Shown here: positions 1 to 54,091 of the stretch, piece after piece
Layout of the letters: every line of letters begins with the position of its first letter
Position numbering within the stretch: the stretch's first letter is position 1
Source: a virus
DNA: 56,932 nucleotides
IMG/VR virus record: IMGVR_UViG_3300032294_002078
Span: 1 to 56,932 of that record
Direction: 5' to 3' (one strand)
The notes under the pieces: model-generated
Told to the model about the DNA's origin: nothing
Seen by the model: the letters and a program-made list of their open reading frames with translations, nothing else
Databases searched by the model: none
Made by a program: the position numbers and the translations under genes

Positions 1-1637
1 AAGCTAATTTAACATTTGATGGAACGACACTTACAGTTACTGGAAATATTGTAGCTCAAACTTTAAATGTACAAGAAGTTACTTCTTCTAGAGAATTTAT
101 AACTGGGTCCAGTGTTAATGGATCGCTATTAACAAATACGCATCAGTTTACCGGATCTGTATCAATTACAGGATCACTGAGAATACCTACGGCTACCGCT
201 AATCCGACTGGAACTACAGTTGGTCAAATATACTATAATACTACAGACAATAACATTTATAGATTTAACGGTTCTACATGGTTATCAGCTGCTGGTTCAA
301 GCGGTACTTCCGGTTCATCAGGAACTAGTGGTAGTTCAGGTAGCACTGGAACTTCTGGTTCATCAGGCACATCTGGATCTACGGGCACATCTGGATCTTC
401 TGGGTCTAGTGGTACATCCGGATCTTCTGGTACATCAGGTGCAAATGGAGCAAATGGTACTAGTGGTTCTAGTGGATCTAGCGGCACGTCTGGTGCAAAT
501 GGAGCAAATGGTACATCAGGATCAAGTGGAACTAGTGGTTCATCTGGCACATCTGGATCTAGCGGAACTTCTGGTAGCTCAGGTTCAACAGGAACTTCAG
601 GTAGTTCTGGATCATCAGGTACATCAGGATCAAGTGGCACGTCTGGCACAGGATTCAATACTATAACAAATCCAGTTGACAATAGAGTATTAACTTCTTT
701 AGGCACAACTAATACTGCAAATGCAGAAGCTAATCTAACTTTTGATGGAAGTTCTTTGATACTAACAGGATCTTTAACAAGTAGTAATGATATCAGAGTT
801 AGTGGTATAACTGTAGGTAGAGGCGGTGGTAATCAATCTCAAAATACTGCAATCGGTGCAGATGCTTTAAGACTTAACACAACTCAGATTTTTAATACAG
901 CAGTAGGTGCAAGCGCTCTAATATCTTCTTCTGGTGGTAGTGGTGGTAATACCGCTGTAGGTGCTGTTAGTATGAGGTTCACTACAGTAGGATCAAATAA
1001 TTCTGCATTTGGATATGGTTCATTATTTGATAATATAAGTGGAAATACTAATAGTGCATTTGGGTATAGTGCTTTAGGAGGTAATACTGACGGAACTTTT
1101 AATGTAGGAATTGGAGCATTTGCCGGTGATACTCTTTCTGATGGCGTTACTTTTAATACAACTTCTGATAATAGTGTATTCATTGGATATGCTGCATCTC
1201 CTTCACAAAGTAACGGTCAAAATGAAATTGTAATTGGTAGTAGTGCTATTGGTAATGGTTCAAATACAGTTACTTTAGGTAATACCAGTATTGTAAGAAC
1301 TGTGCTTAGAGGTAGCGTAGGTATAGGAGGAGTTGCTCAAATTAATGCTACTTCATCTATTACAACAACTGGAGCAGTAATAGTATCATCAATAAACACA
1401 GGATCTGCAACATCTGCATTCTATAATTATACTATAGCTTCTGGATCAAATGCAAGATCTGGTCAGATAATGTCTGTATGGAGTGGAACAACTATAAGAT
1501 ATACTGAGGTAACAACTACTGATATAGGAAATACAAACTCTGCTTTATTTGCAGTAGATATATCAGGAGCAAATGTACGACTTCAGTTTACATCATCAGG
1601 AGTTTGGAGAGTAAAAACTATTACTGATTTATTATAA
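1..1637 (+). CDS. Collagen-like phage tail fibre protein, 5' truncated by the window edge
   Basis: The frame is open from base 3 (bases 1-2 finish an earlier codon) to the stop at 1637, about 545 residues; the real start lies upstream. In order it has beta-rich fibre repeats (ANLTFDGTTLTVTG, NTHQFTGSVSITGSL), about 39 Gly-X-Y triplets made of GTS, GSS and GAN (bases 301-654), a second LTFDGSSL module, YadA-like beads of the form NTAxGxxAL (about 850-1280), and a globular C-terminus. This is the build of a trimeric receptor-binding fibre. No S74 chaperone domain is visible at its end. Three lectin-like genes follow directly, suggesting a shared adhesion apparatus. A fibre role is well supported; which fibre (long, short or head) is unknown. 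Confidence 0.82.
   Translation, partial: ANLTFDGTTLTVTGNIVAQTLNVQEVTSSREFITGSSVNGSLLTNTHQFTGSVSITGSLRIPTATANPTGTTVGQIYYNTTDNNIYRFNGSTWLSAAGSSGTSGSSGTSGSSGSTGTSGSSGTSGSTGTSGSSGSSGTSGSSGTSGANGANGTSGSSGSSGTSGANGANGTSGSSGTSGSSGTSGSSGTSGSSGSTGTSGSSGSSGTSGSSGTSGTGFNTITNPVDNRVLTSLGTTNTANAEANLTFDGSSLILTGSLTSSNDIRVSGITVGRGGGNQSQNTAIGADALRLNTTQIFNTAVGASALISSSGGSGGNTAVGAVSMRFTTVGSNNSAFGYGSLFDNISGNTNSAFGYSALGGNTDGTFNVGIGAFAGDTLSDGVTFNTTSDNSVFIGYAASPSQSNGQNEIVIGSSAIGNGSNTVTLGNTSIVRTVLRGSVGIGGVAQINATSSITTTGAVIVSSINTGSATSAFYNYTIASGSNARSGQIMSVWSGTTIRYTEVTTTDIGNTNSALFAVDISGANVRLQFTSSGVWRVKTITDLL
301..654 (+). repeat. Gly-X-Y (GTS/GSS/GAN) triplet repeat
   Basis: This is a nine-base-periodic run coding for collagen-like triplets with no proline. 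Ser, Thr and Gly codons are freely mixed (TCT, TCA, AGT, AGC; GGT, GGA, GGC), so the DNA is far less repetitive than the protein. The overlapping long ORFs in other frames here are shadows of this repeat. Confidence 0.9.
850..1280 (+). repeat. YadA-like bead repeats in fibre
   Basis: Irregular repeats of about 14-20 residues with the core NTAxG/NSAFG followed by xxAL or xSL. These resemble the left-handed beta-roll head repeats of trimeric autotransporter adhesins. Confidence 0.65.
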
Positions 1638-1648
1638 AATAAAGGCGT

Positions 1649-2314
1649 ATGTCATTTGGAAATGGACCAAATATGGTTACTAGTGGATTGGCAATATGTT
1701 TAGATGCTGCTGATAGAAATTCTTATCCTGGTAGTGGAACTACTTGGTTTGATTTAGGAGTTGGTCGTGATAATAGTATTTTAACTAATGGACCTATTTT
1801 TAATCCTGATAATGGAGGAAGTATTGTTTTTGATGGAGTTGATGATTTTGGGGCATCTACAGATTCAGTAAGCTTTCTTCTAACAGTATCTATGTGGGTT
1901 TATAAAACATCCACTGCACCTAATCAAGGGCTTAGTACTAGAAATAATACTATATGGGGAACAGCTCAAATTAGTGGTAGTTTTAGAGTATTTGTATCAA
2001 CAGTTGGCTCGTATACAGATACAGGATATATAATACCTTTAAATGAATGGACAAATATTGTTTATACTTATGCTGGTACTGCATTAAGTGGTTCTCAAAT
2101 TGTTTATGCAAATGGAACAAATGTATTTAGTAATTCAGCTGGGACTGGTTCTCTTTTTGGAGGAAGACTTCGTGGAAATCCTATTCTTGTAGGAGCTAAT
2201 GCTAATGGATATTGGGGAGGCAGAATAGCACAAGTTTACCTATATAACCGCCCCCTTTCAGAATCAGAAGTATTACAAAACTATAACGCACAAAAATCAC
2301 GCTTCGGCTTATAA
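1649..2314 (+). CDS. LamG/concanavalin-A-like lectin domain protein, copy 1
   Basis: A 221-residue single-domain protein. It starts with a GLAICLDAADRNSYPG segment, continues with NGPxFNxxNGGSIVFDGVDD, has a core LNEWTNIVYTY strand, and ends in YNAQKSRFGL. This pattern is typical of the LamG-like jelly-roll family (Laminin_G_3 type), which often binds sugars or proteins. It is the first of three adjacent paralogues and follows a fibre gene by 11 bases. I infer a virion-surface adhesin that contacts host or environmental glycans. There is no signal peptide. The start is the ATG after GGCGT. Confidence 0.75.
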   Translation: MSFGNGPNMVTSGLAICLDAADRNSYPGSGTTWFDLGVGRDNSILTNGPIFNPDNGGSIVFDGVDDFGASTDSVSFLLTVSMWVYKTSTAPNQGLSTRNNTIWGTAQISGSFRVFVSTVGSYTDTGYIIPLNEWTNIVYTYAGTALSGSQIVYANGTNVFSNSAGTGSLFGGRLRGNPILVGANANGYWGGRIAQVYLYNRPLSESEVLQNYNAQKSRFGL

Positions 2315-2316
2315 CT

Positions 2317-3030
2317 ATGGGAGTAGCAGGTGGACCAGATATAATTCAAAATGGATTAATATTATCGGTAGATGCTGCTGATAGAAATTCTTATTCTAGT
2401 AGTAGTACAGTTTGGACAGATTTATCAGGTAATAATAATAATAGTACTTTAATTAATGGCCCTACATTTAATTCTGCTAATGGAGGTAGTATTGTATTTG
2501 ATGGAATAGATGATCACACTACAGCATCAGATAGCACGAGTCTTAGACCAACATCTTTTAGTATTGATACTTGGATTAGAGCTACTTCTTTTGGTTCATT
2601 TAATACAGTAGTAGTAAAACCTTTTAATGGTCCTCCTTGGACTGCACCTTTTTTATCTTACATGGTAAGGATAGAAACTAATGGAACTGTATTAAGTTGT
2701 GGTACAAATACTGGAGGCACTTATAGAACATTATCTACAAGCTATACTTTTTTAACTAATACAATATACAATATAGTTTTTACCTTTAATAGTTCTACAG
2801 GAGCTGCTATATCTTATATAAATGGAAGTGTATTGTCATCTATAACCCACCCAGCAGGAGCTATATCTTATTCTACACCTCCAGTATTAATAGCAGCCGC
2901 TTATGGTGCAAGTCCTATTGGAGAACTTTTTGCGGGTAATATATATAATGTAAAAATATATAATACAGTATTAACAGCAGCAAATATTACTCAAAATTAC
3001 AACGCATTAAAATCAAGATTCAATCTATAA
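2317..3030 (+). CDS. LamG/concanavalin-A-like lectin domain protein, copy 2
   Basis: A 237-residue paralogue of its two neighbours. It shares the N-terminal DAADRNSY segment, the central NGPTFNSANGGSIVFDGIDD, and the C-terminal YNALKSRFNL. The middle (about residues 70-200) is strongly diverged from the other two copies, as expected if the exposed face sets binding specificity. It begins two bases after the previous stop, so translation is probably coupled. The exact ligand cannot be read from sequence. Confidence 0.75.
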   Translation: MGVAGGPDIIQNGLILSVDAADRNSYSSSSTVWTDLSGNNNNSTLINGPTFNSANGGSIVFDGIDDHTTASDSTSLRPTSFSIDTWIRATSFGSFNTVVVKPFNGPPWTAPFLSYMVRIETNGTVLSCGTNTGGTYRTLSTSYTFLTNTIYNIVFTFNSSTGAAISYINGSVLSSITHPAGAISYSTPPVLIAAAYGASPIGELFAGNIYNVKIYNTVLTAANITQNYNALKSRFNL

Positions 3031-3034
3031 AGTT

Positions 3035-3727
3035 ATGGCAACACAATTCGCATTTGGTAAAATAGTAACAGACGGATTAGTATTAGCATTAGATGCTGCT
3101 GATAAGAATTCCTATCCTGGTAGTGGAACTACTTGGGGAGATTTAGCTGGAAGTAATAATGGTACTTTAACTAATGGACCCACTTTTAATTCTGCCAATG
3201 GTGGAAGTATTGTGTTTGATGGTATAGATGACTTTGTATTAGGAGGATCAAATTTACCTATATCAGGCGATCCTTCATTTACTATTTCTTATTTTGCAAT
3301 ATGGAATGGTTCTGTTTTTTCAACTAACTATCCTTCGGGGGTAGGAAATAATTCTACAGGAAATACTAATCAAGGACTTAGTACTACTTGGAATGAAGGA
3401 AGAATAGCTTTAGATTTTTGGGTTAATAGATTTAGAGATAATACAGCACTAAATGTTCAAACTTGGTATAATGTAACGTTTACTAAAACACCAGGATTAA
3501 TAGGATCTACAACTAAATTATATGTAAATGGACAAGAAAGAGTTGGAACTGTAGAAGGTACAAATACAACTCCCAATATTACTATAAGTCCATATGTAGT
3601 AGGCAGGCTAGATGCTACTAGGTGGTTTAATGGAAGAATAGCAAACGTACAAATATACAACAGAGAACTTTCACTATCAGAAATTCTACAAAACTATAAC
3701 GCACAAAAATCACGATTTAATTTATAA
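3035..3727 (+). CDS. LamG/concanavalin-A-like lectin domain protein, copy 3
   Basis: A 230-residue third copy, closest to copy 1 at its N-terminus (the DNA for PGSGTTW is identical) and to copy 2 in the NGPTFNSANGGSIVFDGIDD block. That mosaic similarity suggests recombination among copies. It ends in YNAQKSRFNL. As in the family, a WYNVTFTK strand and a VNGQ turn lie near residues 145-170. It is probably a virion adhesin. Confidence 0.75.
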   Translation: MATQFAFGKIVTDGLVLALDAADKNSYPGSGTTWGDLAGSNNGTLTNGPTFNSANGGSIVFDGIDDFVLGGSNLPISGDPSFTISYFAIWNGSVFSTNYPSGVGNNSTGNTNQGLSTTWNEGRIALDFWVNRFRDNTALNVQTWYNVTFTKTPGLIGSTTKLYVNGQERVGTVEGTNTTPNITISPYVVGRLDATRWFNGRIANVQIYNRELSLSEILQNYNAQKSRFNL

Positions 3728-3730
3728 ACT

Positions 3731-4006
3731 ATGTCATACGAAAACAGAGAATTCATGATCTTTAACGTATCAGAATTACCACAAATCGACTTTACTCAAG
3801 TATTAGAAACATCTATTGATACAGTAAGAAAATCAGTAGATGAAACAAAAACATTTGTAAAATGGGAAGGACCAACAATTCCTTCATCAGTAGATTCATT
3901 AACTACTAAAGAAGGTCCATACAATTATAATGAAATCCTAACTATTTTAGCAACTCCTGAATGGAGTAATCCTAATCCTAATCCAAATCCAATTGTAATT
4001 CCTTAA
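3731..4006 (+). CDS. Hypothetical protein after the lectin cluster
   Basis: A 91-residue acidic protein that I do not recognise. It contains no Cys and no membrane segment, and it ends in an Asn-Pro repeat (NPNPNPNP) that may be a flexible tail. It starts three bases after the third LamG gene and appears to be last in that transcription unit, since a promoter-like box follows. Its position suggests a small virion or fibre-attachment protein, but that is inference only. Confidence 0.6.
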   Translation: MSYENREFMIFNVSELPQIDFTQVLETSIDTVRKSVDETKTFVKWEGPTIPSSVDSLTTKEGPYNYNEILTILATPEWSNPNPNPNPIVIP

Positions 4007-4015
4007 TATTTATTC
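4006..4015 (+). promoter_or_regulatory. Late-promoter-like box ATATTTATTC
   Basis: Lies 32 bases before the start of the collagen-like fibre at 4048. The leader between them can fold with CTGT and ACAG as a short stem. Confidence 0.5.
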
Positions 4016-4047
4016 ATAGCTGTCGGAAAGTGAAAACAGTATAAAAC

Positions 4048-6255
4048 ATGCCAAACGAATTTAAAGTCAAAAATGGCCTACTTGTTAGTGGGTCAGCTAA
4101 CATCAATGCTTCAGGATCTGAAGTTTTTTCAGTAGATGGAACATCAGGTCGCTTATTCCAAGTAGATGACTCACTTTCTGGTTCTTTATTTTCGGTTAAT
4201 ACAGCAGCGGGTCTTCCTTTAATCGAAGCTTTTTCTAACAATACAGTTCGTATTGGTCAATTTGGTCAAGTTCCTTTTAATATTTCTCAATCAAGAGTAG
4301 GTATAGGAAAATTATTAGATTTAAATTCTATTTTAGATATTTTTGGCACTGCTACTATAACAGGAAGTCTTATTGTTAGTAGTAGTGCTACTATGTTAGG
4401 TTCACTTTCAGCTCCAAATATTACAGGTTCATTATTTGGAACAGCATCATTTGCAGTATCTGCATCGTGGGCACCAAGCTCAGGCGGCGGAGGTGGAACA
4501 TCAGGTACTAGCGGTACATCAGGCACTTCTGGTTCTAGTGGAACTTCTGGTGCTAATGGAGCTAATGGAACTAGTGGTTCATCTGGCACATCAGGAGCTA
4601 ATGGAGCAAATGGTACTTCTGGCTCATCTGGCACTTCCGGATCTAGTGGAAGCTCAGGTACATCAGGGGCAAACGGAGCAAACGGCACTAGCGGTTCTTC
4701 AGGATCTAGTGGTACAAGCGGTGCTAATGGAGCAAATGGTACTAGTGGTTCTAGTGGAACGTCTGGTTCAAGTGGAACATCTGGTTCAACTACAATACTT
4801 ACTGTAGCTAATAATGGAACTATTCAAGGAACAGCTAATTTCTTGAATTTTACAACTAATATGACAGCTACTGTATCTAATAGTACTGCTTCTATTAGTT
4901 CAACTGGAGGCGGTGGTGGTGGAACACCTGGTGGTGCAAATACAACTGTTCAATTCAATGATGCAGGAGCATTTAGTGGGTCAGGTAACTTTACATTTAC
5001 TAAAGCAACTAATACAGTACAAATACAAGGTAGCGGATCTGTATTATTAAGAGTAACAGGAAGTAGAGGAGATCTATTAAGAGTATTAGATAGTGGATCA
5101 AACTCTCCTGTATTAGCTACTCTATCTTCTGGTAGTGTGAATGTATTCACATTTACTACTTCATCACTTTTAATTACAGGATCAATAAATGCAAGTATAG
5201 AAACAGACGCAGTACATTATGGAAGAATAGTTGTAACTCCTGCAACAAATCAAAATGACTATTCTCCAACAGGATGGAACGATGCAGATCCTGCAAAAGC
5301 AACTACAATTAATATAAATGCAGGTGCATCTATTAAAATAACAGGACTAGCCGGCGGTGTTGCTGGTAGATTGGCAATATTAAAAAATGCATCTACAGAT
5401 AGATTAATTATATTAGAAGACGAATCAGCATCTTCAACAGCAGCAAATAGATTTGATTTTAGAAATCCTATATTCTTACTTCCAAACGGTAGCGCTACTT
5501 TATTATATGATGGAATTGATTCTAGATGGCAACCTATAGCAACATCGGGTGGTATTGGTTTTGGTGCATTCTTTGATACTTATGATGATTTTATAGGTGC
5601 AACAGATGTATTTACTACTACGGCAACTGAAGTTGGTAGATTCGCAGGAATAGCTGCTGGTACAGCTGCTGGTGGAACTATTAGTAACTATTTAATTAAT
5701 ACAACAGAAAAACCTTTAGGAGTATATCGTATATCCACTGGAACTACTAATACAGGAAGAGCTATTTTAGGATCTGTTGATGGATCGTCTGTTATACCTG
5801 CTAATGGTCAAGCAGTGTTTTTATGTAGAATGGCAGTAGAAACTCTATCTGATGCTACTAATGAATATCAAATATTTGCAGGATTTCAAGATTCGGTAGG
5901 TACTACCAACGTTACAGATGGTGTTTATTGGACATACACTAGAACAGCAAGTACAGCATGGCAAGGAGCAACAGCAAATAACTCAACAAGAACTACTACT
6001 GGTGCAGCAGGACCTACTGTTGATACTAACTATATTTGGTTAGGAATATATGTAAACCCAACTTGGGCAAGAGCAACATATTTTTACTCAACAGATAGTA
6101 TTACATGGATTATAGCAGGTGAAATAACAACCAACCTACCTCCACAAACTAGAGCTACAGGTTTAGGAGTAACAATAAATAAAACAGCAGGTACAACTGC
6201 AAGAAGTGGATCAATAGATTTAATGGCTTATAGATATGACATTACAAGAGGATAA
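4048..6255 (+). CDS. Collagen-like tail fibre / virion structural protein
   Basis: 735 residues. The N-terminal part (about 1-145) has fibre strands and the recurring GSLFGTASFAVSASW module. Residues about 150-250 are Gly-X-Y triplets (GTS, GSS, GAN). A beta-rich shaft follows, and the C-terminal region from about residue 500 looks globular (TEVGRFAGIAAGTAAGG and following) and is probably the receptor-binding or capping domain. It lacks an S74 chaperone. The module is shared with the fibres at 13255, 16871 and 17431, showing a common origin. It has its own promoter-like box. Confidence 0.8.
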   Translation: MPNEFKVKNGLLVSGSANINASGSEVFSVDGTSGRLFQVDDSLSGSLFSVNTAAGLPLIEAFSNNTVRIGQFGQVPFNISQSRVGIGKLLDLNSILDIFGTATITGSLIVSSSATMLGSLSAPNITGSLFGTASFAVSASWAPSSGGGGGTSGTSGTSGTSGSSGTSGANGANGTSGSSGTSGANGANGTSGSSGTSGSSGSSGTSGANGANGTSGSSGSSGTSGANGANGTSGSSGTSGSSGTSGSTTILTVANNGTIQGTANFLNFTTNMTATVSNSTASISSTGGGGGGTPGGANTTVQFNDAGAFSGSGNFTFTKATNTVQIQGSGSVLLRVTGSRGDLLRVLDSGSNSPVLATLSSGSVNVFTFTTSSLLITGSINASIETDAVHYGRIVVTPATNQNDYSPTGWNDADPAKATTININAGASIKITGLAGGVAGRLAILKNASTDRLIILEDESASSTAANRFDFRNPIFLLPNGSATLLYDGIDSRWQPIATSGGIGFGAFFDTYDDFIGATDVFTTTATEVGRFAGIAAGTAAGGTISNYLINTTEKPLGVYRISTGTTNTGRAILGSVDGSSVIPANGQAVFLCRMAVETLSDATNEYQIFAGFQDSVGTTNVTDGVYWTYTRTASTAWQGATANNSTRTTTGAAGPTVDTNYIWLGIYVNPTWARATYFYSTDSITWIIAGEITTNLPPQTRATGLGVTINKTAGTTARSGSIDLMAYRYDITRG
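4498..4791 (+). repeat. Gly-X-Y (GTS/GSS/GAN) triplet repeat, second fibre
   Basis: About 33 collagen-like triplets, including GANGANGTSGSS blocks identical in protein to those at 301-654 but written with different codons. Confidence 0.9.
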
Positions 6256-6266
6256 AATAATTAATT

Positions 6267-6464
6267 ATGAATAGACTTTTAATAACAGGAACAGATATAG
6301 AATGGACAATTCAAAATATTGCTAACAGCTGGATGATAGAAGGATTATATAGCTCAGTTAAAGTAGTAAAAGAATCAACTACATATAAAGTAGTAAGTTT
6401 AGATGATTCAATTACATATTGTGAAATTCCAATTTATAATACAGTTATAAAATATAGTATTTAA
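6267..6464 (+). CDS. Hypothetical small protein between fibre genes
   Basis: A 65-residue protein with no recognised family. It has one Trp-rich N-terminal stretch (IEWTIQNIANSWMIEG) and beta-prone sequence after it. It sits 11 bases after a fibre gene and one base before the poly-glycine protein, so it is probably co-translated with them. It might be a fibre-joining or assembly factor, but nothing in the sequence shows this. Confidence 0.55.
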   Translation: MNRLLITGTDIEWTIQNIANSWMIEGLYSSVKVVKESTTYKVVSLDDSITYCEIPIYNTVIKYSI

Positions 6465-6465
6465 A

Positions 6466-7320
6466 ATGTCTCTTTTTACTATATTTGATGGATCTTTTAT
6501 ACAAGAAAGAGGTACTTTTGAAATAGGATCTGCTATAAGAATTCGTCCTAGTACATCATCTATTTTTACAACTACAGGAATAAACAACTTTACTGTACCT
6601 GCTGGAATTACTGAAATCTATACAGTTTTAGTAGGTGGAGGAGGTGGAGGCGCTGGTTCTGAAGGAGATAGAAACCAAGGTTATGGAGGTGGTGGCGGAG
6701 GCGCATTTGCTTACGGAACTATAACAACAACACCAGGACAAAATTTAATATTATTTGTAGGAGCGGGAGGTACCGCAGGTGCAAATGGTGGAGGAAATGG
6801 TGGAGCGGGCGGTGCTAGTTATGTCAGTTCATCTGCTGGTATATTAATTCAAGCAGGTGGTGGTGCTGGTGGATTAGAAAGAAGTACTACATCAGCAGCA
6901 GGAGGTATATCATCTGGTAGCTTTAGAACAGGTGGTGGAAATGGAGGAGCAGGTGGCGGTGCAACAGACAATAATCAAGGCGGTGGCGGTGGTGGCGCTG
7001 GTGGTTTTTCTGGTAATGGTGGTGCTGGAGGAGGTACTGGTGCTGGATCAAATGGTGCCGGCGGTGGTGGCGGAGGAGGAGGCTCTACAAACTCTGGACA
7101 AGGATATGGTGGTGGCGGAGTAGGCATTCCTACTGAAGGTACAAGTGGAACCGGAGGTGCTCAAAATGCTGTTGGTACAGGAGGATCGGGAGGCGCAAAT
7201 GGAACAAGCCCTGCTGGTGGATTATACGGTGGTGGAGGAGGTGCCTGTGATGATGATACCTCAGGTCCAGGTGGTGCAGGTGCTCAAGGTGTAATTTATA
7301 TTTTTTATTTTACAGGATAA
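6466..7320 (+). CDS. Glycine-rich fibre-tip/adhesin-like protein
   Basis: 284 residues. A short N-terminus is followed by TTGINNFTVPAGITEIYTVLVGG, a hallmark of glycine-rich phage fibre domains. Then come many poly-Gly runs (GGGGGAGS, GGGGGG, GGNGGAGGG) separated by short variable loops, ending in GAQGVIYIFYFTG. This layout resembles the poly-glycine sandwich of T-even gp38-type adhesins, where glycine helices hold variable recognition loops. I infer a receptor-binding tip working with a neighbouring fibre. The homology to gp38 is by architecture only. Confidence 0.7.
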   Translation: MSLFTIFDGSFIQERGTFEIGSAIRIRPSTSSIFTTTGINNFTVPAGITEIYTVLVGGGGGGAGSEGDRNQGYGGGGGGAFAYGTITTTPGQNLILFVGAGGTAGANGGGNGGAGGASYVSSSAGILIQAGGGAGGLERSTTSAAGGISSGSFRTGGGNGGAGGGATDNNQGGGGGGAGGFSGNGGAGGGTGAGSNGAGGGGGGGGSTNSGQGYGGGGVGIPTEGTSGTGGAQNAVGTGGSGGANGTSPAGGLYGGGGGACDDDTSGPGGAGAQGVIYIFYFTG

Positions 7321-7328
7321 AAATTTAC

Positions 7329-7338
7329 ATATTTATAA
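7329..7338 (+). promoter_or_regulatory. Late-promoter-like box ATATTTATAA
   Basis: Lies 17 bases before the glycosyltransferase at 7356. It would drive both glycosyltransferase genes. Confidence 0.55.
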
Positions 7339-7355
7339 TAACAGAATAATAAGTT

Positions 7356-10300
7356 ATGACAATATTTTTTATTGCTCCTCACCTATCTACAGGTGGAATG
7401 CCTCAATATCTTTATAAACAAATAGAGGCTTTATATAAAGAACACATAGTATATTGTTTAGAGTGGGATGATGTAACAGGAGGGAATCTTGTAGTTCAAA
7501 GAAATAGGATTAAGAACCTTTTAGGCAATAGACTTATAACTTTAGACCAAGATAAACACCATTTATTTAAGCTTATTGAAGAATTTAATCCAAGTGTAAT
7601 TCACCTTCAGGAAATACCTGAAATGTTTATGCCTATTGATGTAGCTGATAAATTCTATTCAATAAATAGAAAATATAAAATAATTGAAACATCTCACGAT
7701 TCTAGTTTTGACATAAGTAGAAAAATACACTTTCCAGATAAATTTATGATGGTAAGTCAATATCAAGTAGAGACTTATAAGCCATTAAATATTCCTATTG
7801 AACTAGTAGAATATCCTATAGAATATAAAACTAGAACTCATACTAGAGAGAAATTAATGAATAAATTAGGTTTAGATCCTAATAAAAAACATGTTATAAA
7901 TGTAGGATTATTTACTCCTAGAAAGAATCAAGCAGAAGTTATTGAATATGCTAGAACGCTTAAGGACTATCCTATTCAATTTCACTTTATAGGAAATCAA
8001 GCAGATAATTTTCAACATTATTGGCAACCTTTAATGAAAGATTTTCCTAGTAATTGTAAATGGTGGGGAGAAAGAAGTGATGTAGATACTTTTTTTGAAA
8101 TGGCTGACTTGTTTTTATTTACTTCTAGAGGTCATGCTACTGATAAAGAAACAATGCCTCTAGTAATTAGAGAAGCTATTAGTTGGAAAACACCGTCACT
8201 TATTTTTAATTTAGATGTTTATTTAGATTATTTTAATAAATTTAGTAATATAGACTATCTAGATTTTAATATTAAAGATGAAAATATAAAATTGATACTA
8301 AATAAATTAGGAATGGAAATAAATAAAGTAGACCAGGTTTTTGATATATCTGTAATCGCATCAGAAAATAAAATAAATATACAGTATAAAAAACATGAGC
8401 CTGTAATATATAAAGTATCAATAAAAGAAAAGTATTCTAATGCACCTTTATATTGGTTCAATGCAAATTTTGAAAATAGCTCTAGTTGGTGGGTAGTTCC
8501 AATTCCTACATCAGCATCTGATTTTAGTAAAGACTATGCTATAGGAACAATTTTAATAGAGTTTTATGACTTAAATAATAATTTAGTATTTTCAAAAGAT
8601 TTATTTATTAAAGATTCTGATCAAGATAAAATACATCTTAATTTAGATAATCCATTTGATTGTTTATTTAACAATTATAATGAGATGTTTTTAGAAAATA
8701 AATATGATTGTTATGAATTAGATACTTTAGATTTGGTTTTAGATATTGGTGCAAATAGCGGATTATTTTCGCTTTTATGCGCAAATAAAGGAGTTAAAAA
8801 GGTTTATGCATTTGAACCTAATAAAGAATCTTTAGTTAATTTAAATAGTGTAACAAAAAATTTAAGTGTAGAAATAGTAGAAAAAGCTGTTTATACTAAA
8901 GATGAAGATCTTAAATTTTATATAGATCCTACAAACACAACTATAGGAAGTCTATCAAAAGAACACCTAGAAATACACGCAACTTCATTAGAAGAAGTCA
9001 TAGTACCTGCAATATCTTTAAAAACATTTGTAAAACAAAATAATATTGATAAAATATCTTTAGTTAAAATAGATATAGAAGGAGCCGAATATGAAATTAT
9101 TGACGAATTAGAAGATGAAGTATTTAATATTATTGATGCATTTTTAATTGAATATCATGATAATAAAAATCAGAAAGTAAAAAAGTTAATAGATAAACTT
9201 GTTTCTAAAGGTTTTGATATAGATCAAATAAGAGACCAAAATTCTAAAAATAATCATAATATAAAAGATTCTTATGCTACAGCACCATTAGGAACAATTT
9301 ATGCTAAGAAGTCTATAGAAGAAAAATTACTTACTGTAGTTATTCCTACTTATAATCATGAAAAATATATAGAACAGTGTGTAGACAGCGTATTAAGACA
9401 AAAAACATTATTTAATTTTAATGTTTTAATATCTGATGATTGTTCTACAGACAGTACTTGGAAAATTCTTCAAAAATATAAAAATAATAAAAATGTTATT
9501 TTAAATAAAAATAAGATTAATCAAGGCGCTAGTTCTTTAATGGTATCAACATTACTTAAAAGAGTAAAATCTGAATACGTAACTATATTAGATGGAGATG
9601 ATTTTTATGTAGATGATTATAAACTACAAAAACAAATAGATTTTTTACAATCTAATTCAGAGTATTCTGTTTATAGTACTGGATATTTTCAAAAAGAAAC
9701 AGAAAATCCAGAAGAGGAATATACTAAATTTACTTGTTATGGTATAGAACCTGAGGTAGAGCTTTTAAATAATATAGAAGCTAATTATATGTCTTTTGGT
9801 TTTATGTTTAGAAATATTTTTAAACAAGAAAACTATTCTTTTCCTGAATGGTTTTTCCATGAAGATGTTTTTGATCCTTATTGGGCTTTACACTGCCTTT
9901 TGTTAGAAACAGGATCAGGAAGAAATGATAGATGGCCAGGAGGAGTTTATAGAATAACTCCAGGAGGAGCATACGGAGAAAAAGATTGGAATTGGAAAAT
10001 GGAAGTAGGAGCAAAACAATCTAAAATAATTAAAAATGCTTATAAAGATATAATAGATTTAAAAAATAAAATTAAACCTATTATAATAATTGATGCTTTT
10101 TTTCACGATAAAAAATGTTTTACTACATTTAAAAAAACCTTATCTAATTTAAAAAATACAAAGATTCCTATAATGTTAGTGACTAATAGTAAATTTAGTG
10201 AGTCATTAATAAATGAAGTTGATTACATATTATATGATAATAATAATAGACTATTTAAAAATGAATATGTAAGTGATGATACGGTATTTGTTTGGTATAA

Positions 10301-11132
10301 AGATAGCGACAAATATTTTTCTTTTTCTAATAATGTAACACAAAAACACGGATTATCTGTACTTTCTAACTTGCACCATTCAACTAATTTAGCAAAATCA
10401 TTAGGATTTACTCATTTTTTTAGAATTGAATATGATTCTGAAATAAAAAATATAAATAAGATAAAACATATAATGTATGAAACTAAAGATAAAAATGGTT
10501 ACATTTATGTAAATGAAGATAAGTATTTATCTTATCAATTATGGTATTTAAGCTTAGATTATTTTACTAAAATTATGCCTAGTATTAATAAAGAAGAAGA
10601 TTATATAAGTTCTAAATTAAAATTAGGAAGTAAAGAAAATGAATTTATTTTAGTAGAAGATTATTTATTGAGATTATTTAGGAATGATAAAGGATACAAA
10701 GATTTAATAGTTAATACACCGAGTCAAGTAAGAATAGACTTTCCAGATTCATCATGGAATACGATAACATCAGCAGCAGAATCTGATTTTATAGTAGATG
10801 GATTTGTATCTTCTGTTTATAAAGTAGCATATTCAAAAGAAGGGATAGAAGAACAGTATTGTCCTATAGATAACACTAAATTTGCTATCGTTACTTGGAA
10901 TTGCAGTTCTACTAATTATAATAAATCTAAAATTGTTATTAAAAGAAAGAATCAAATAGATGAAATATTAGATCATACAATTTCTGGAACCAATGGTCAT
11001 TCCTATAATATATTTGATTTGACAGATGAAAATATAGAAATAGAAATAATAATGAATGATCATAAATCTAAATTTTACGTAATAAATAAAAATAATATAG
11101 AATCACTACAAACTATTATAGCACTCAAATGA
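7356..11132 (+). CDS. Multidomain glycosyltransferase/methyltransferase (GT4-like + FkbM + GT2)
   Basis: 1258 residues. Residues about 1-330 look like a GT-B (GT4-type) transferase (IAPHLSTGGMPQYLYKQ; NVGLFTPRKNQAEVIEYA). A beta-rich segment follows (about 340-430). Residues about 450-650 match FkbM methyltransferases (DIGANSGLFSL for SAM binding; VKIDIEGAEYEII). From about 655 there is a GT2 domain (TVVIPTYNHEKYIEQCVDS; DGDD near 746). Near 906-1160 is a further GT-A-like region (IIIIDAFFHDKK), and a beta-sandwich-like end. It should build and methylate a glycan. It overlaps the next gene by four bases (ATGA). The gene is even more AT-rich than its neighbours, which may mean recent acquisition. 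Confidence 0.8.
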   Translation: MTIFFIAPHLSTGGMPQYLYKQIEALYKEHIVYCLEWDDVTGGNLVVQRNRIKNLLGNRLITLDQDKHHLFKLIEEFNPSVIHLQEIPEMFMPIDVADKFYSINRKYKIIETSHDSSFDISRKIHFPDKFMMVSQYQVETYKPLNIPIELVEYPIEYKTRTHTREKLMNKLGLDPNKKHVINVGLFTPRKNQAEVIEYARTLKDYPIQFHFIGNQADNFQHYWQPLMKDFPSNCKWWGERSDVDTFFEMADLFLFTSRGHATDKETMPLVIREAISWKTPSLIFNLDVYLDYFNKFSNIDYLDFNIKDENIKLILNKLGMEINKVDQVFDISVIASENKINIQYKKHEPVIYKVSIKEKYSNAPLYWFNANFENSSSWWVVPIPTSASDFSKDYAIGTILIEFYDLNNNLVFSKDLFIKDSDQDKIHLNLDNPFDCLFNNYNEMFLENKYDCYELDTLDLVLDIGANSGLFSLLCANKGVKKVYAFEPNKESLVNLNSVTKNLSVEIVEKAVYTKDEDLKFYIDPTNTTIGSLSKEHLEIHATSLEEVIVPAISLKTFVKQNNIDKISLVKIDIEGAEYEIIDELEDEVFNIIDAFLIEYHDNKNQKVKKLIDKLVSKGFDIDQIRDQNSKNNHNIKDSYATAPLGTIYAKKSIEEKLLTVVIPTYNHEKYIEQCVDSVLRQKTLFNFNVLISDDCSTDSTWKILQKYKNNKNVILNKNKINQGASSLMVSTLLKRVKSEYVTILDGDDFYVDDYKLQKQIDFLQSNSEYSVYSTGYFQKETENPEEEYTKFTCYGIEPEVELLNNIEANYMSFGFMFRNIFKQENYSFPEWFFHEDVFDPYWALHCLLLETGSGRNDRWPGGVYRITPGGAYGEKDWNWKMEVGAKQSKIIKNAYKDIIDLKNKIKPIIIIDAFFHDKKCFTTFKKTLSNLKNTKIPIMLVTNSKFSESLINEVDYILYDNNNRLFKNEYVSDDTVFVWYKDSDKYFSFSNNVTQKHGLSVLSNLHHSTNLAKSLGFTHFFRIEYDSEIKNINKIKHIMYETKDKNGYIYVNEDKYLSYQLWYLSLDYFTKIMPSINKEEDYISSKLKLGSKENEFILVEDYLLRLFRNDKGYKDLIVNTPSQVRIDFPDSSWNTITSAAESDFIVDGFVSSVYKVAYSKEGIEEQYCPIDNTKFAIVTWNCSSTNYNKSKIVIKRKNQIDEILDHTISGTNGHSYNIFDLTDENIEIEIIMNDHKSKFYVINKNNIESLQTIIALK

Positions 11133-13210
11133 AAATAGTTAATGTTACTCCAGGTTTAATTCCTATTCCACCTAATGGTTGGGGAGCAGTGGAAAAAATT
11201 ATATGGGAGATCCATAACTGCCTCCTAAAACTAGGCCATGATCCCAAGATTTCATATCTGGACGAGGTAAATGATTATGATGTAGTTCATATTCATGTGG
11301 CAAACCTAGCGAACCTGGCGCATGAGAGAGGTATTCCTTATTACTTTACTATGCATGATCACCACGCCTATCTTTATGGGAAAGATTCTAGTGCATATAA
11401 AGAAAATTTATTAGCTATAAAAAATGCGCAAAAAGCATTTGTACCGGCTAAATTCTTAGTAGATTACTTTGAAGGAATACCAGAATACTTTTCTCATGGT
11501 GTAAACACAGATTACTTTACTCCTACAGGAGTTAAAGAACATAAATTGTTATGCGTAGCAAATAATGGATTTATTCATGATCAATCTGAAGATAGAAAAG
11601 GATTTAATTATGCTATTGAAGCCGCTAAACAATTGAATCTTCCTATTACTATAGCAGGACCTAGTAATAACAAAAACTATTTTGAAAAGTTTCCTTCTGA
11701 CTACAATAAGCTCACTATTCTTTATGATTTAACTGAAGACGAATTAAGAGACTTATATAAAGAGCATAGTATATTTGTTCATGCATCTATATTAGAAGCA
11801 GGACATCCTAATTTAACTTTACTTGAAGCCATGGCATCAGGTCTTCCTGTAGTAGGGACTTATGAAGATAATAATGATCTAAAAGGCTTAATCAAAGTAA
11901 AAAGAAATACAAATCAAATAGTAGAAGCTATATCTAAATTAATAAACCCAATAAAGTATCTTAGATATTCTAAACTAGCTAAAACAACAGCATTAGAATT
12001 GTCGTGGATGAATAGAACAAAAGAGTTAGTAAAAAAATATTCTAATACTATGAAAGATCAACTTATACAAGGTTATGAAAATACAGAAATATTAGCAATA
12101 CCTTCAAAAGAATCTATTCCTCAATTTAATATCAATTTTATTCAAGGCGCTTTCTTTGAAATTGTTGGAGGAAAAAAATTAGATTATGAAGTATCTTTTA
12201 CAGATAATAAAACAAATGAAGTTTTACATTCAGGTAAAATATCCTCTAACTGTTGGATTAAAGCTAGTAAACAAAATTTTATTGATTGGAAAATAATAGC
12301 ATTAGATGGAATTCATGAATATGAATATAATTTAGACTTAAAAGATAAAAGAGTATATATTGCATTAGATTCTAAATCTTTAGGCGATACTTTAGCATGG
12401 TTTCCTTATATAGAAGAGTTTCAAAAAAAGTATAATTGTAAAATAATAACATCAACATTTTGGAATCACTTTTTTGAAAAAGAATATCCTAATTTTGAGT
12501 TTGTTAAACCTGGAGAAACTGTTAATAACCTTTATGCAATGTATACTATAGGATGGTTTTATAATGAAGATGGAACTATTGATTATAATAAGAATCCTAG
12601 AGATTTTAAACACATTCCACTTCAACAAACAGCATCTGATATTTTAGGTTTAGAGTATAAAGAACTAAGACCTAGACTATCTGTTGATAAAAACATAAAG
12701 AAAGAAAAACTAATTTCAATAGCGGTACATAGTACAGCGCAAGCTAAATACTGGAATAATAAAACAGGTTGGCAAAAGGTAGTTGATTATGTAAAAAGTC
12801 TTGGATATAGAGTTATTATGCTGTCAAAAGAAGAAGACGGTTATATGGGCAATGCTAATCCTAAAGGAATAGAATATCTTTATAATACCAGTATAGAAAA
12901 AACAATAGAAATACTACAAAAATCAGAAATGTTTATTGGTATTAGTAGTGGTCTTAGTTGGCTTAGTTGGGCACTAGGAACTAAAACATGCGTAGTATCT
13001 GGATTTTCTGATCCTATAACTGAATTTGAAGATGTAATTAGAATATATACAAAAAATGGATTCTGTAGAGGTTGTTTTAATACACATCAGTTAGATGCTG
13101 GGGATTGGAATTGGTGTCCAAAACATAAAGGAACACAAAGACAGTTTGAATGCAGCAAAACAATATCAGGAGAAGAAGTTATAAAAGCCATTGAAAAGCA
13201 TATTTCTTAG
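11129..13210 (+). CDS. Bifunctional glycosyltransferase: GT4 + autotransporter-heptosyltransferase-like domain
   Basis: 693 residues. Residues 1-310 form a GT4-type domain (PPNGWGAVEKIIWEI; EAGHPNLTLLEAMASGLPVVG). A beta-rich linker leads to residues about 405-693, which resemble the bacterial autotransporter O-heptosyltransferase family (TibC/BAHT): SLGDTLAWFPYIEEF, HSTAQAKYWN, SSGLSWLSWALGT, and four cysteines in FCRGCFNTHQ, NWCPKH and FECSKT near residues 645-677 that match the family's iron-finger. Known members attach heptose to Ser in beta-helix adhesins. Here the likely targets are the adjacent Ser/Thr-rich fibres, which is inference; host surface sugars are the alternative. Confidence 0.78.
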   Translation: MKIVNVTPGLIPIPPNGWGAVEKIIWEIHNCLLKLGHDPKISYLDEVNDYDVVHIHVANLANLAHERGIPYYFTMHDHHAYLYGKDSSAYKENLLAIKNAQKAFVPAKFLVDYFEGIPEYFSHGVNTDYFTPTGVKEHKLLCVANNGFIHDQSEDRKGFNYAIEAAKQLNLPITIAGPSNNKNYFEKFPSDYNKLTILYDLTEDELRDLYKEHSIFVHASILEAGHPNLTLLEAMASGLPVVGTYEDNNDLKGLIKVKRNTNQIVEAISKLINPIKYLRYSKLAKTTALELSWMNRTKELVKKYSNTMKDQLIQGYENTEILAIPSKESIPQFNINFIQGAFFEIVGGKKLDYEVSFTDNKTNEVLHSGKISSNCWIKASKQNFIDWKIIALDGIHEYEYNLDLKDKRVYIALDSKSLGDTLAWFPYIEEFQKKYNCKIITSTFWNHFFEKEYPNFEFVKPGETVNNLYAMYTIGWFYNEDGTIDYNKNPRDFKHIPLQQTASDILGLEYKELRPRLSVDKNIKKEKLISIAVHSTAQAKYWNNKTGWQKVVDYVKSLGYRVIMLSKEEDGYMGNANPKGIEYLYNTSIEKTIEILQKSEMFIGISSGLSWLSWALGTKTCVVSGFSDPITEFEDVIRIYTKNGFCRGCFNTHQLDAGDWNWCPKHKGTQRQFECSKTISGEEVIKAIEKHIS

Positions 13211-13254
13211 TATAATTTATAAATCCCAAATATGTATTAGAAAGATAGTCCGAG

Positions 13255-16200
13255 ATGGGATTTCGTATAGAAGCGCCTAAACAAGACGGTAACGCCAGGT
13301 TCAACACTCTTAAAGTTAATCTAAATGAAAATAATTTAGCTACTAGAGTAGTTGTTGTAGATGAAGAAGGCAAGTTCTACTATGGATCTGGCGGTGGAGG
13401 TGGCACTGGAGGAACTAATGGTACATCTGGAGCTAATGGATCATCTGGAACCTCAGGAACCGGTTTTAATACTATATCTAATCCACAACTAGGTAGAGTT
13501 TTATTATCAGATGGCTCTACAAATTCTGCTATAGCATCTACAAATTTAAATTTTTTAAATAATACGCTTCAAGTAACAGGAAGTTTAATAGCAGATAGTC
13601 TATTAATAAATTCTGATGTATTTGAGTTTACAGGATCATTAAGAGTTTTAGGTGGAATTACAGGTTCACTTCAAGGTACTTCTAGTTGGGCAATAAATGC
13701 TTTAACAGCATCGTCTGCTGATAGCTTTATTGTTAGATCAGACAAGTTTGAATTTACAGGTTCTTTAGAGGTATTAGGTGGAATTACGGGTTCTTTATTA
13801 GGAACTTCTAGTTACGCATTAACGGCTTCACACGCACTAAATGTTCAAGGCACCGCTAGTTGGGCATATAATGCTTTAACAGCATCATCCGCTGATGACT
13901 TTTATATAAGAGCAGACAAGTTTGAATTTACAGGCTCTCTTGAAGTATTAGGAGGTATTACTGGATCTTTACTAGGAACGGCTAGTTATGCGGTTACAGC
14001 TTCACATGCACTAAATGTAGTAGGTACTGCAAGTTGGGCGTATAACGCACTAACAGCGTCTTCCGCAGACGATTTCTACATCAGAGCTGATAAGTTTGAA
14101 TTTACAGGCTCTCTTGAAGTAGACGGGGGAATTACGGGATCTTTATTAGGAACAGCTTCTTATGCAATTACTGCTTCCCACGCACTAAATGTAGTTGGAA
14201 CAGCAAGTTGGGCATATAATGCTTTAACAGCATCATCTGCTGATGACTTTTTAGTTAGAGGTACTTTAACCGCACAAACTATTGTTGCTCAAGTAATTAC
14301 TTCTAGTACACAATATATAACTGGCTCAACTATATTCGGGTCTCAACTTTCTAATACCCATCAATTTACTGGCTCTGTTTATATAACTGGAAGTTTAACA
14401 ACTGATGATTTAACAGTTTTAGCAGACAATTTTGAATTTACAGGTTCACTTGAAGTACTAGGAGGCATTACTGGATCGTTATTAGGTACTTCTAGTTACG
14501 CAATAACTGCGTCACATGCATTAAACGTAGTAGGAACTGCTTCTTGGGCATATAATGCTTTAACAGCATCATCCGCTGATGACTTTTATATAAGAGCAGA
14601 CAAGTTTGAATTTACAGGCTCTCTTGAAGTTAATGGTGGAATTACTGGTTCACTATATGGAACTTCTAGTTGGGCAGTAAGCGCGTCTTGGTCACCAGGA
14701 TCAACCCAATCAGATACTGCATCTTATGTATCATCTTCTAATGTATATGGTCCTTATGGATTTGATAGTATACAAACAGCATCATTTGCTTTTACAGCAT
14801 CATCCGCCGATAGCTTTATTGTTAGATCTGACAAGTTTGAATTTACTGGTTCACTTGAAGTACTAGGATTTATAACAAGTAGTGGAGATCTTTTTATAAG
14901 AAGTACAACATCAGAACCCATAACAATAGGTAGAGGTTTTTATTCTGCTAGTAATGATAACAATATAGTTTTTGGACATGCTTCTTTAGTAAATGCTGTA
15001 AGCAGCTCAGATCGCAATATAGCTATAGGAGACTATGCATTAAATACACTAGTTTCCGGAATTGAAAACGTTGCTATAGGATATGGCGCTTTAAGATACG
15101 CAATAAATAATAGAAATACTGCTGTAGGTGCTTATGCTTTATTCTATACAACAGGATCTACAGGCTTTAGAAATAATGCATTTGGTGCTTATGCTCTAGC
15201 TTTCAACACTACTGGTGAAGTAAATAATGCATTTGGTTCTTATGCTCTATATAGAAATACTGTAGATGATTATAATGCTGCATTTGGTGATTTTGGTTTA
15301 TTTAATCTATCAACTGGATCTTCTAATGCAGCACTAGGACAAGCAGCAGGATATAATTTAAGGTCTGGAGAGGGTAATGTAATTATTGGTAGAGGAGCAG
15401 CTCCTAGTTTATTATCAGGTAGTAATAATACTATTATAGGTGCAATAACACCAAGTGCTGATATTAACACACCAGTCTTCGGCCTTTTAACTGGTAGTTA
15501 TAATACAATTATAGGATCAAATATAAAAGGACTATCTTCTATTCTTGACAATAATATTATTATTGCTGATGGTCAAGGTACTATAAGAGCATGGCATAAT
15601 GCAATAAGCTGGTCATTTTCAGGTTCAGTAGTTGCACCTCAAGGATTTACAGGTTCACTTCAAGGTACTTCTAGTTGGGCAATAAATGCTTTAACAGCAT
15701 CGTCTGCAGATAATTTTTATGTTAGATCAGACAAGTTTGAATTTACTGGTTCTTTAGAAGTGTTAGGTGGAATTACAGGATCTTTATATGGTACAGCAAG
15801 TTGGGCAGTAAGTGCATCATGGACACCTGCTTCAATACAATCTGATACAGCTTCTTTTGTAACTGCATCAAATGTATGGGGACCGTTTGGGTCTAATAGT
15901 ATAAGAAGCGCATCATATGCAGCAACAGCATCATCCGCTGATAGCTTTATTGTTAGATCAGACAAGTTTGAATTTACTGGTTCTTTAGAAGTGTTAGGTG
16001 GAATTACAGGATCTCTATTAGGTACAGCTAGTTTTGCTACAACCGCTTCATATGCTTTAAATGCAGGATCAACATTTCCTTTTTCAGGATCTGCTGTTAT
16101 AACAGGAAGTCTTTTAATTTCCGGTAGTGGATTGAGTACTCAGTTTATATCTAATGCAAATAATCCACTTTATATCTATACGTTTAATGATCCTAGTAAT

Positions 16201-16869
16201 TCTACTTATGGAAGACTGAGGTTTTACTATGATTCTATTCAGCATAGAATAACTAGTGAAGGCGCAGGCGGGGCTTCGAGAGATTTAGGATTAATGGGTG
16301 GAGGTGCAGGTGGACAGTTGTATTTAGGAACAGGTGGTACAAACAGATGGTATATTACAGGTACATTTAATGCTTTAGGATCAGGACATTTTTTACCAGT
16401 AGGAGATAATCTTTATAATATTGGAGATCCAACTGCTAGGGTTGCTAATTACTATGGGGTAGGAAGCTATATATCTAATTTATTAAATGTAACCGGATCT
16501 GCAAATATTTCAGGAAGTGTAATAATAACAGGATCTTTAAATCTTAACGGAACTGCTACAGTAACAACTTTAGTAGAAACGTCTACTAGAACATTAAAAG
16601 AAAATATACAAAATTATTCAATAGATTTAGAAAAATTTAAAAACTTAAATCCTGTTACATTTAATTGGAAAGATACTAAAAAAGAAGATATAGGTCTAAT
16701 AGCAGAAGAATTAGAAAATCTATTTCCTGAATTTGTATCTAAAGATGATACAGGAAATCCTATAGGTATACAGTATGGAAAACTAGGTATTATATTTATA
16801 AACGTAATAAAGGAGCAACAAAAAAGAATAGAATTATTAGAGAATCAAGTTAAACAATTAATTAAGTAA
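13255..16869 (+). CDS. Long modular tail fibre with C-terminal S74 intramolecular chaperone
   Basis: 1204 residues. It has a short N-terminal head (MGFRIEAPKQDG), a six-triplet collagen-like stretch, then nine DxFEFTGSLxVLGGITGSL modules. These alternate with GTASxAxTASHAL and SWAYNALTASSAD segments. YadA-like beads (VAIGYGALR, NTAVGAYAL, NNAFGAYAL) occupy about residues 560-760. The last ~100 residues are a peptidase S74 domain (STRTLKENIQNY; IGLIAEELENLFPEFVSK), with Ser and Lys five residues apart as in the known Ser-Lys dyad. S74 domains guide fibre trimerisation and then cut themselves off. It follows the glycosyltransferase genes by 44 bases. Confidence 0.88.
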   Translation: MGFRIEAPKQDGNARFNTLKVNLNENNLATRVVVVDEEGKFYYGSGGGGGTGGTNGTSGANGSSGTSGTGFNTISNPQLGRVLLSDGSTNSAIASTNLNFLNNTLQVTGSLIADSLLINSDVFEFTGSLRVLGGITGSLQGTSSWAINALTASSADSFIVRSDKFEFTGSLEVLGGITGSLLGTSSYALTASHALNVQGTASWAYNALTASSADDFYIRADKFEFTGSLEVLGGITGSLLGTASYAVTASHALNVVGTASWAYNALTASSADDFYIRADKFEFTGSLEVDGGITGSLLGTASYAITASHALNVVGTASWAYNALTASSADDFLVRGTLTAQTIVAQVITSSTQYITGSTIFGSQLSNTHQFTGSVYITGSLTTDDLTVLADNFEFTGSLEVLGGITGSLLGTSSYAITASHALNVVGTASWAYNALTASSADDFYIRADKFEFTGSLEVNGGITGSLYGTSSWAVSASWSPGSTQSDTASYVSSSNVYGPYGFDSIQTASFAFTASSADSFIVRSDKFEFTGSLEVLGFITSSGDLFIRSTTSEPITIGRGFYSASNDNNIVFGHASLVNAVSSSDRNIAIGDYALNTLVSGIENVAIGYGALRYAINNRNTAVGAYALFYTTGSTGFRNNAFGAYALAFNTTGEVNNAFGSYALYRNTVDDYNAAFGDFGLFNLSTGSSNAALGQAAGYNLRSGEGNVIIGRGAAPSLLSGSNNTIIGAITPSADINTPVFGLLTGSYNTIIGSNIKGLSSILDNNIIIADGQGTIRAWHNAISWSFSGSVVAPQGFTGSLQGTSSWAINALTASSADNFYVRSDKFEFTGSLEVLGGITGSLYGTASWAVSASWTPASIQSDTASFVTASNVWGPFGSNSIRSASYAATASSADSFIVRSDKFEFTGSLEVLGGITGSLLGTASFATTASYALNAGSTFPFSGSAVITGSLLISGSGLSTQFISNANNPLYIYTFNDPSNSTYGRLRFYYDSIQHRITSEGAGGASRDLGLMGGGAGGQLYLGTGGTNRWYITGTFNALGSGHFLPVGDNLYNIGDPTARVANYYGVGSYISNLLNVTGSANISGSVIITGSLNLNGTATVTTLVETSTRTLKENIQNYSIDLEKFKNLNPVTFNWKDTKKEDIGLIAEELENLFPEFVSKDDTGNPIGIQYGKLGIIFINVIKEQQKRIELLENQVKQLIK
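13600..16060 (+). repeat. 174/231-bp fibre modules
   Basis: The start of the DKFEFTGSLEV unit recurs at 13741, 13915, 14089, 14425, 14599, 14830, 15730 and 15961, after a first diverged unit near 13612. Spacings of 174 bases (58 codons) are exact for consecutive units. Two units are 231 bases long, with 19 extra codons (QSDTASYV-type insert). Most differences between units are synonymous third-base changes. Confidence 0.88.
14920..15540 (+). repeat. YadA-like bead repeats in long fibre
   Basis: About eight beads of the type N(T/N)A(V/F)GxYAL, each separated by 15-22 residues. They match the bead region of the truncated fibre at 850-1280. Confidence 0.65.
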
Positions 16870-16870
16870 A

Positions 16871-17386
16871 ATGGCTCAATTACAAAGTACATCTATTACA
16901 GGCTCTTTAACAGCTTCTTTATTAGAAGCAAATAGCTTGTTAATTAGCGCAGATGTATTTGAATTTACTGGTTCACTAAAAGTTTTAGGTAGTATAACCG
17001 GGTCTTTATTAGGCACATCTAGTTTTGCTTTAACTGCTTCTTACTTAGAAGGATCTAATATACAAGGAATTTCTGGATTTAGAATAGGAACCGGAAGTGT
17101 GTCTGCTAGTGTAAATGTAACTCCTCAAAATTTATTTTTAATTAATTCTGGATTTACACAATATTTTAATATATCTAGTTCAGGAGATACAGACATATAT
17201 AGTAATTTATTTATAGTTCGTAATTTTACAACAAAACAACCAGTTTTAACAGTTAGTCAGAGTATAATTCAGATAGCAACGCAGTCTTTTGATCCAACAG
17301 GAAATACTAAAGCTGGATCTATTTGGTTTACATCTGCGTCAATGTATGTAGGATTGGAAGAGTACACATACATTGAACCTAACTAA
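16871..17386 (+). CDS. Short fibre-module protein
   Basis: 171 residues. The N-terminal third repeats the fibre module (SADVFEFTGSLKVLGSITGSL, then GTSSFALTASYLEG). The remainder is beta-rich with a GSIWFTSASMYVGLEEY end and has no chaperone domain. It starts one base after the stop of the long fibre, so the two are probably translated together. It may be a fibre subunit or cap that shares an assembly surface with the long fibre. It is a paralogue by module rather than a fragment. Confidence 0.65.
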   Translation: MAQLQSTSITGSLTASLLEANSLLISADVFEFTGSLKVLGSITGSLLGTSSFALTASYLEGSNIQGISGFRIGTGSVSASVNVTPQNLFLINSGFTQYFNISSSGDTDIYSNLFIVRNFTTKQPVLTVSQSIIQIATQSFDPTGNTKAGSIWFTSASMYVGLEEYTYIEPN

Positions 17387-54078: not shown

Positions 54079-54091
54079 AATAAAAAAGACT

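Follow-up and report, generated by a model that had tools for sequence, protein, structure and literature searches.

A TibC-type glycosyltransferase encoded between phage fibre genes and proline-poor collagen-like arrays as its predicted acceptor

Why does a phage keep two very large glycosyltransferase genes in the midst of its fibre genes? The question is raised by the IMG/VR record IMGVR_UViG_3300032294_002078, of which we analyzed a linear piece of 56.9 kb (positions 1 to 56,932; hereafter the window), whose gene content (tail sheath, T4 baseplate protein, gp32, UvsX-like recombinase, DnaB, DNA polymerase, ribonucleotide reductase and GroEL) indicates that it comes from a T4-like myovirus. 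A sequence-only reading of this DNA had described two large enzyme genes between two fibre blocks, and both open reading frames (ORFs) are present and intact on the plus strand, at 7356-11132 (enzyme 1, 1258 aa) and 11129-13210 (enzyme 2, 693 aa), with a 4 bp overlap. On one side of this island lie a collagen-like fibre block (3-6255) and a glycine-rich tail protein (6466-7320), and on the other S74-chaperone fibres (13255-16869 and 19318-23001). We favour the reading that the island is a virion-glycosylation cassette acting on the phage's own fibres. Judging from the sequences, the TibC-type domain of enzyme 2 probably puts a first sugar on Ser/Thr of proline-poor (Gly-[Ser/Thr]-[Ser/Thr])n arrays in the tail fibres, after which the GT4, GT2 and FkbM domains, whether fused to it or encoded next to it, would lengthen and methylate the glycan.

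Enzyme 2 consists of a GT4 half (residues 1-315, 11129-12073; PF13692, E 9.3e-12; phrog_33732 over residues 1-315) fused to a TibC/BAHT-type O-heptosyltransferase domain (residues 329-690, 12113-13198), which was delimited by TIGR04414, residue mapping and the match of its model to 4rap/4rb4. The TIGR04414 profile (hepto_Aah_TibC) scored 291.6 bits on enzyme 2 against a cut-off of 200, and the TibC sequence in the PDB matched it over 336 residues with an E of 1e-58. The AlphaFold2 model (predicted local distance difference test, pLDDT, 87.6) had the TibC structures 4rb4 and 4rap as its top Foldseek matches in the PDB, at 32% identity and with a template modelling (TM) score of 0.84 by target length over 371-373 columns that covered both the beta-barrel and the catalytic domain. 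The sequence-only reading, which had proposed such a structural comparison, had placed a TibC/BAHT-like domain with a four-Cys iron finger at residues 405-693; the type of domain was borne out, and its extent had to be revised, since homology starts at about residue 329 and thus includes the TibC beta-barrel domain. Using the positions named in the TibC paper (PMC4358343), we mapped the catalytic base D110 and T226, K230 and W305 of TibC to D420, T536, K540 and W611, and the iron-finger cysteines to C646, C649, C663 and C675; these residues were invariant across 84 phage rows, which represent 83 loci, two rows being the window itself. TibC Pro300, a stereoselectivity residue, is Ser606 here, as in AAH, and the thumb residues Phe265/Val266 are not conserved. 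Arg286, which contacts adenine in TibC, corresponds to Thr592 in enzyme 2, the methanotroph group having Ile, Val or Met instead, and Arg was found at this position in 41 of the 84 phage rows and 81 of 94 bacterial rows. Enzyme 2 is a genuine member of the TibC family of protein O-glycosyltransferases.

The bacterial relatives of this enzyme point to a candidate acceptor. Scanning GTDB genomes brought up 495 relatives, of which the best 80, representing 80 loci, were analyzed, and in the resulting tree the phage enzymes and a minority of the bacterial ones (Methylobacter, other Methylococcaceae and other gammaproteobacteria) fell outside the clade of TibC, Lentisphaeria and Selenomonadales; the bootstrap of this tree had not fully converged. 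A strict (G[STA][STA])6+ array was encoded on the fetched stretch at 13 of the 16 cellular loci outside the classical clade and at 0 of the 59 inside it (Fisher, P = 4e-12). After deduplication at 85% identity the counts were 12/14 and 0/21 (P = 1e-7), and the fetched stretches were of similar length for classical-clade and other bacterial loci (14.3 vs 12.4 kb). The distance from TibC to the array outside the classical clade was 4-917 bp in 12 of the 13 loci and 5 kb in one. As read by eye, several of the bacterial array proteins start with a signal peptide, and others have a lipobox Cys ahead of a (GTS)n or (GSS)n run. Among six large proteins sampled near classical TibC genes, four were AIDA-like with TIGR04415 repeats. 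With arrays beside the non-classical branch and TIGR04415 autotransporters beside the classical one, the branch of the enzyme thus predicts the type of repeat. Small (GTS)n/(GSS)n proteins adjoin the non-classical TibC at loci L558, L559, L562, L564, L567, L569, L571-L573, L590, L597 and L612; protein and enzyme apparently make up an unnamed gene pair.

In the window, arrays of this kind are carried by two collagen-like tail fibres on the plus strand, both assigned to PHROG tail fibre families and both above the PF01391 gathering cut-off of 27.2 bits. The fibre at 3-1637, which is open at the window start (60.4 bits), contains a (Gly-[ST]-[ST])n array of 40 triplets at 294-653, in which 71/80 X/Y residues are Ser or Thr, and the fibre at 4048-6255 (43.8 bits) contains 34 triplets at 4486-4791 (50/68 Ser or Thr). 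Because the same enzyme branch adjoins similar array proteins in bacterial chromosomes, we propose these two arrays as the better-supported substrate. On balance we also lean towards a broader view, in which the non-classical TibC branch would be a general glycosylation system for Gly-[Thr/Ser]-Ser arrays, common to aquatic phages (on tail fibres) and bacteria (on small exported proteins and lipoproteins), and in which a collagen-like rod may owe its stability to sugar in place of proline.

The association with arrays was also seen among phages. Our IMG/VR scan yielded 95 stretches with a relative of the enzyme, of which 78 loci were kept, and the phage collection added the huge phages LR756501/LR756503 (full length, 43%) and LR756504 and Microcystis phage Mel-JY01. 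Gene maps showed the enzyme in variable islands together with other glycosyltransferases, methyltransferases and a DegT aminotransferase, frequently with fibre genes on one side and tail-sheath or terminase genes on the other. A PF01391 score above the cut-off was obtained for 38 of the 47 TibC-positive phage records, and the X/Y residues of the arrays at TibC-positive phage loci were 52% Ser, 30% Thr, 10% Asn and 0.5% Pro. For comparison, viral contigs of at least 20 kb were picked, blind to TibC, by DNA patterns for (G[ST][ST])7 or, as control, (GPX)6; the array patterns miss AGY serine codons, and the contigs are fragments in part related to one another. Among the matches listed, TibC was encoded in 15 of 50 array-bearing contigs vs 1 of 45 Gly-Pro-X controls (Fisher, P = 2e-4). 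GT2, counted with Pfam in the same matches, occurred in 13/50 and 7/45, so that general richness in glycosyltransferases does not explain the bias of TibC towards arrays; our home-made hidden Markov models for GT4, FkbM and GT2 were insensitive on array loci. In 14 long genomes the median distance from TibC to the nearest array was 5.8 kb (combined P = 0.006); two genomes depart clearly from this pattern, with distances of 51 and 64 kb. Two side observations concern these relatives. In Mel-JY01 (PP395634, locus L003), where one gene encodes both FkbM and TibC, a plus-strand ORF at 2-3052, mostly unannotated, encodes 202 Gly-X-Y triplets rich in Ser/Thr, and the minus-strand coding sequence annotated at 739-2298 appears to be a shadow frame of this repeat. 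At locus L072 (6470-8511) neighbouring ORFs carry two TibC-type domains, and similar pairs occur in the array-bearing contigs G062 and G067 and in Selenomonad-type bacterial loci.

Several findings count against glycosylation of the arrays by this enzyme. The Gly-Pro-X control set has a higher GC content (0.50 vs 0.41), and contigs that are related to one another do not count as wholly separate observations. As the control set differs in GC, we examined 49 window-related contigs chosen by tail sheath or DnaB, and these speak for the association: seven carried TibC and three carried arrays, all three of the latter being TibC-positive vs 4 of the 46 others; these three represent two independent phages, with a deduplicated P of 0.013. 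Among the matches listed, 35 of the 50 array-bearing contigs showed no TibC, either because the contigs are fragments or because their arrays do without the enzyme. Many TibC-positive loci had no array within 10 kb, the collagen repeats often lying elsewhere in the record, and 9 of the 47 TibC-positive records gave no PF01391 match over the cut-off. The replacement of Arg286 belongs here as well, as the donor may differ, and so does the finding that phage-encoded genes for ADP-heptose synthesis were almost never found, their matches being weak or rare; one huge phage had a gmhA match over the cut-off. As an HldE-like candidate we considered a cytidylyltransferase-like gene of Mel-JY01 and set it aside, since its PF01467 match lay only at the cut-off.

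The sugar is accordingly the least certain part of the proposal. By homology the default would be a heptose taken from host ADP-heptose, an assignment that the changed Arg286 weakens. That the branch kept the array as acceptor and switched to another donor is a possibility we take seriously, although we regard it as the less probable case: activity was lost or lowered in TibC R286A (PMC4358343), and a relative is present in cyanophage Mel-JY01. Many cyanobacteria are said to make lipopolysaccharide (LPS) free of heptose, which would fit a change of donor in a cyanophage. The counterparts of D110, T226, K230 and W305 are all kept, which speaks for the original donor. The contact of Arg286 with adenine, moreover, has been described as weak (PMC4358343).

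Other acceptors were weighed in the same way. One alternative is that the island changes the LPS or O-antigen on the host surface and so excludes other phages, as was proposed by the authors who described glycosyltransferases in a fibre-containing hypervariable region of pelagimyophages (PMC7029224); as generic glycosyltransferases beside fibres are known from those phages, we did not take adjacency to fibres alone as proof. The GT4/GT2 domains and weak matches to LPS heptosyltransferases (RfaC, RfaQ) would fit such a role, but the LPS heptosyltransferase models score >250 bits below TIGR04414 on enzyme 2, the characterised TibC modifies protein (PMC4358343), and the association with arrays is seen for TibC and is not clear for GT2, so that we consider a host-surface function unlikely. 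The sequence-only reading had likewise proposed fibre glycosylation, which we retain, and had named as target the beta-rich, adhesin-like fibres such as the one at 13255-16869 (plus strand; PF13884, with beta-rich repeats and a short tract of nine Gly-X-Y triplets at about 13384-13464), which we now hold to be improbable. This fibre adjoins the island and has a high Ser/Thr content (22.8%), and in beta-helical autotransporters it is Ser that classical TibC heptosylates; however, TIGR04415, the known autotransporter target repeat, was found in 0 of the 47 TibC-positive phage records by a search whose control recovers it in E. coli, and in bacteria the partners of this branch are Gly-[ST]-Ser arrays and not the autotransporters seen beside the classical branch. 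YadA-like head motifs (NTAVGA.AL) can be seen by eye in 3-1637 and 13255-16869, in keeping with the bead repeats of adhesins reported earlier, but no profile confirmed them, and of the NCBIfam adhesin-repeat models only collagen-like ones matched the window fibres. Phage glycosyltransferases are often DNA glucosyltransferases (PMC12619734), as in T4-like phages; given that the TibC family acts on protein, that the island sits among fibre genes and that no base-hypermodification gene was recognised in the scanned part of the window, phage DNA is a far-fetched target here.

Enzyme 1 would supply further steps to the glycan proposed for the array fibres. All three of the domains that had been read from its sequence exceeded the Pfam cut-offs: GT4 (residues 164-297, 7845-8246; PF00534, E 1.6e-14), FkbM methyltransferase (residues 463-620, 8742-9215; PF05050, E 1.1e-17; TIGR01444, 95.6 bits) and GT2 (residues 660-823, 9333-9824; PF00535, E 1.4e-27). 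The last 378 residues (881-1258, 9996-11129) had no Pfam match; their model, of moderate quality (pLDDT 72), showed weak Foldseek likeness to GT-A nucleotide-sugar transferases, and the region is probably a GT-A-like fourth domain plus a beta-sandwich. Homologues of this region occur at other TibC-positive phage loci, and a homologue of the GT4 domain, 43% identical, adjoins the TibC gene in huge phage LR756501.

Compared with TibC and AAH (BAHT, TIGR04414), enzyme 2 is alike in fold, family score, the catalytic Asp/Thr/Lys/Trp and the four-Cys iron finger, and differs in its GT4 fusion, its separate tree branch, the replaced Arg286, the thumb residues and the lack of an autotransporter or TIGR04415 repeat partner. 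Glycans have been reported on structural proteins of mycobacteriophages (Freeman 2023, as cited in PMC12619734); there the C-terminal ends of capsid and tail-tube subunits are reported to bear them, and neither a TibC-type enzyme nor a collagen-like array is mentioned. O-glycosylated Gly-X-Y repeats, as proposed here, are found in BclA of the Bacillus exosporium, in mimivirus collagens (PMC8968730) and in Riftia cuticle collagen (Mann 1996). In the last, the stabiliser is reported to be glycosylated Thr and not hydroxyproline (Mann 1996, cited in PMC6953826), and the glycosylation of BclA is thought to aid a hydration network (PMC8968730). Bacterial collagen-like proteins have about 19-31% Pro at X, whereas the arrays of TibC-positive phage loci have about 0.5% over X and Y. 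To our knowledge, the enzymes acting on BclA and on the mimivirus and Riftia proteins are not of TIGR04414. The likely gain for the phage would be a stiff, hydrated and stabilised Pro-free rod with a variable sugar coat; the arrays as acceptor, the building of the other domains on the first sugar and this physical role are all parts that we infer. The sequence-only reading had further suggested, as possible benefits, escape from host or grazer recognition and a tuning of receptor binding. As the sequence-only reading had supposed, we found no earlier report of fibre glycosylation by a TibC-type enzyme in the open-access literature searched, which is not proof of novelty.

If the proposal is true, an entire branch of protein O-glycosyltransferases whose database names refer to autotransporters would acquire a substrate, and it would be clear what some of the enigmatic glycosyltransferase islands next to phage fibres do. 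It would also suggest that prokaryotes and their viruses make Pro-free collagen-like rods stabilised by sugar, and such fibres would have to be handled as glycoproteins in phage host-range and imaging work. The isolated phage Mel-JY01 and cultured methanotrophs allow direct testing.

The surroundings of the island offered some further observations. The glycine-rich tail protein immediately upstream (6466-7320, plus strand) matched PF21722 and phrog_4474 (E 1.5e-24). Three tandem concanavalin-A-like lectin (Laminin_G_3) proteins at 1649-3727 adjoin the collagen-like fibre, and similar lectin proteins lie near TibC in loci L009 and L064. A promoter scan performed no better on the real sequence than on shuffles, and terminators little better. 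Gene starts in 4048-16871 are A-rich before the ATG, without a clear Shine-Dalgarno motif, and Flavobacteriales and Winogradskyella metagenome-assembled genomes contain related contigs; taken together, these observations hint at a Bacteroidota host. The phage also encodes its own GroEL-type chaperonin at 54065-55723 (phrog_5725, E 1e-148).

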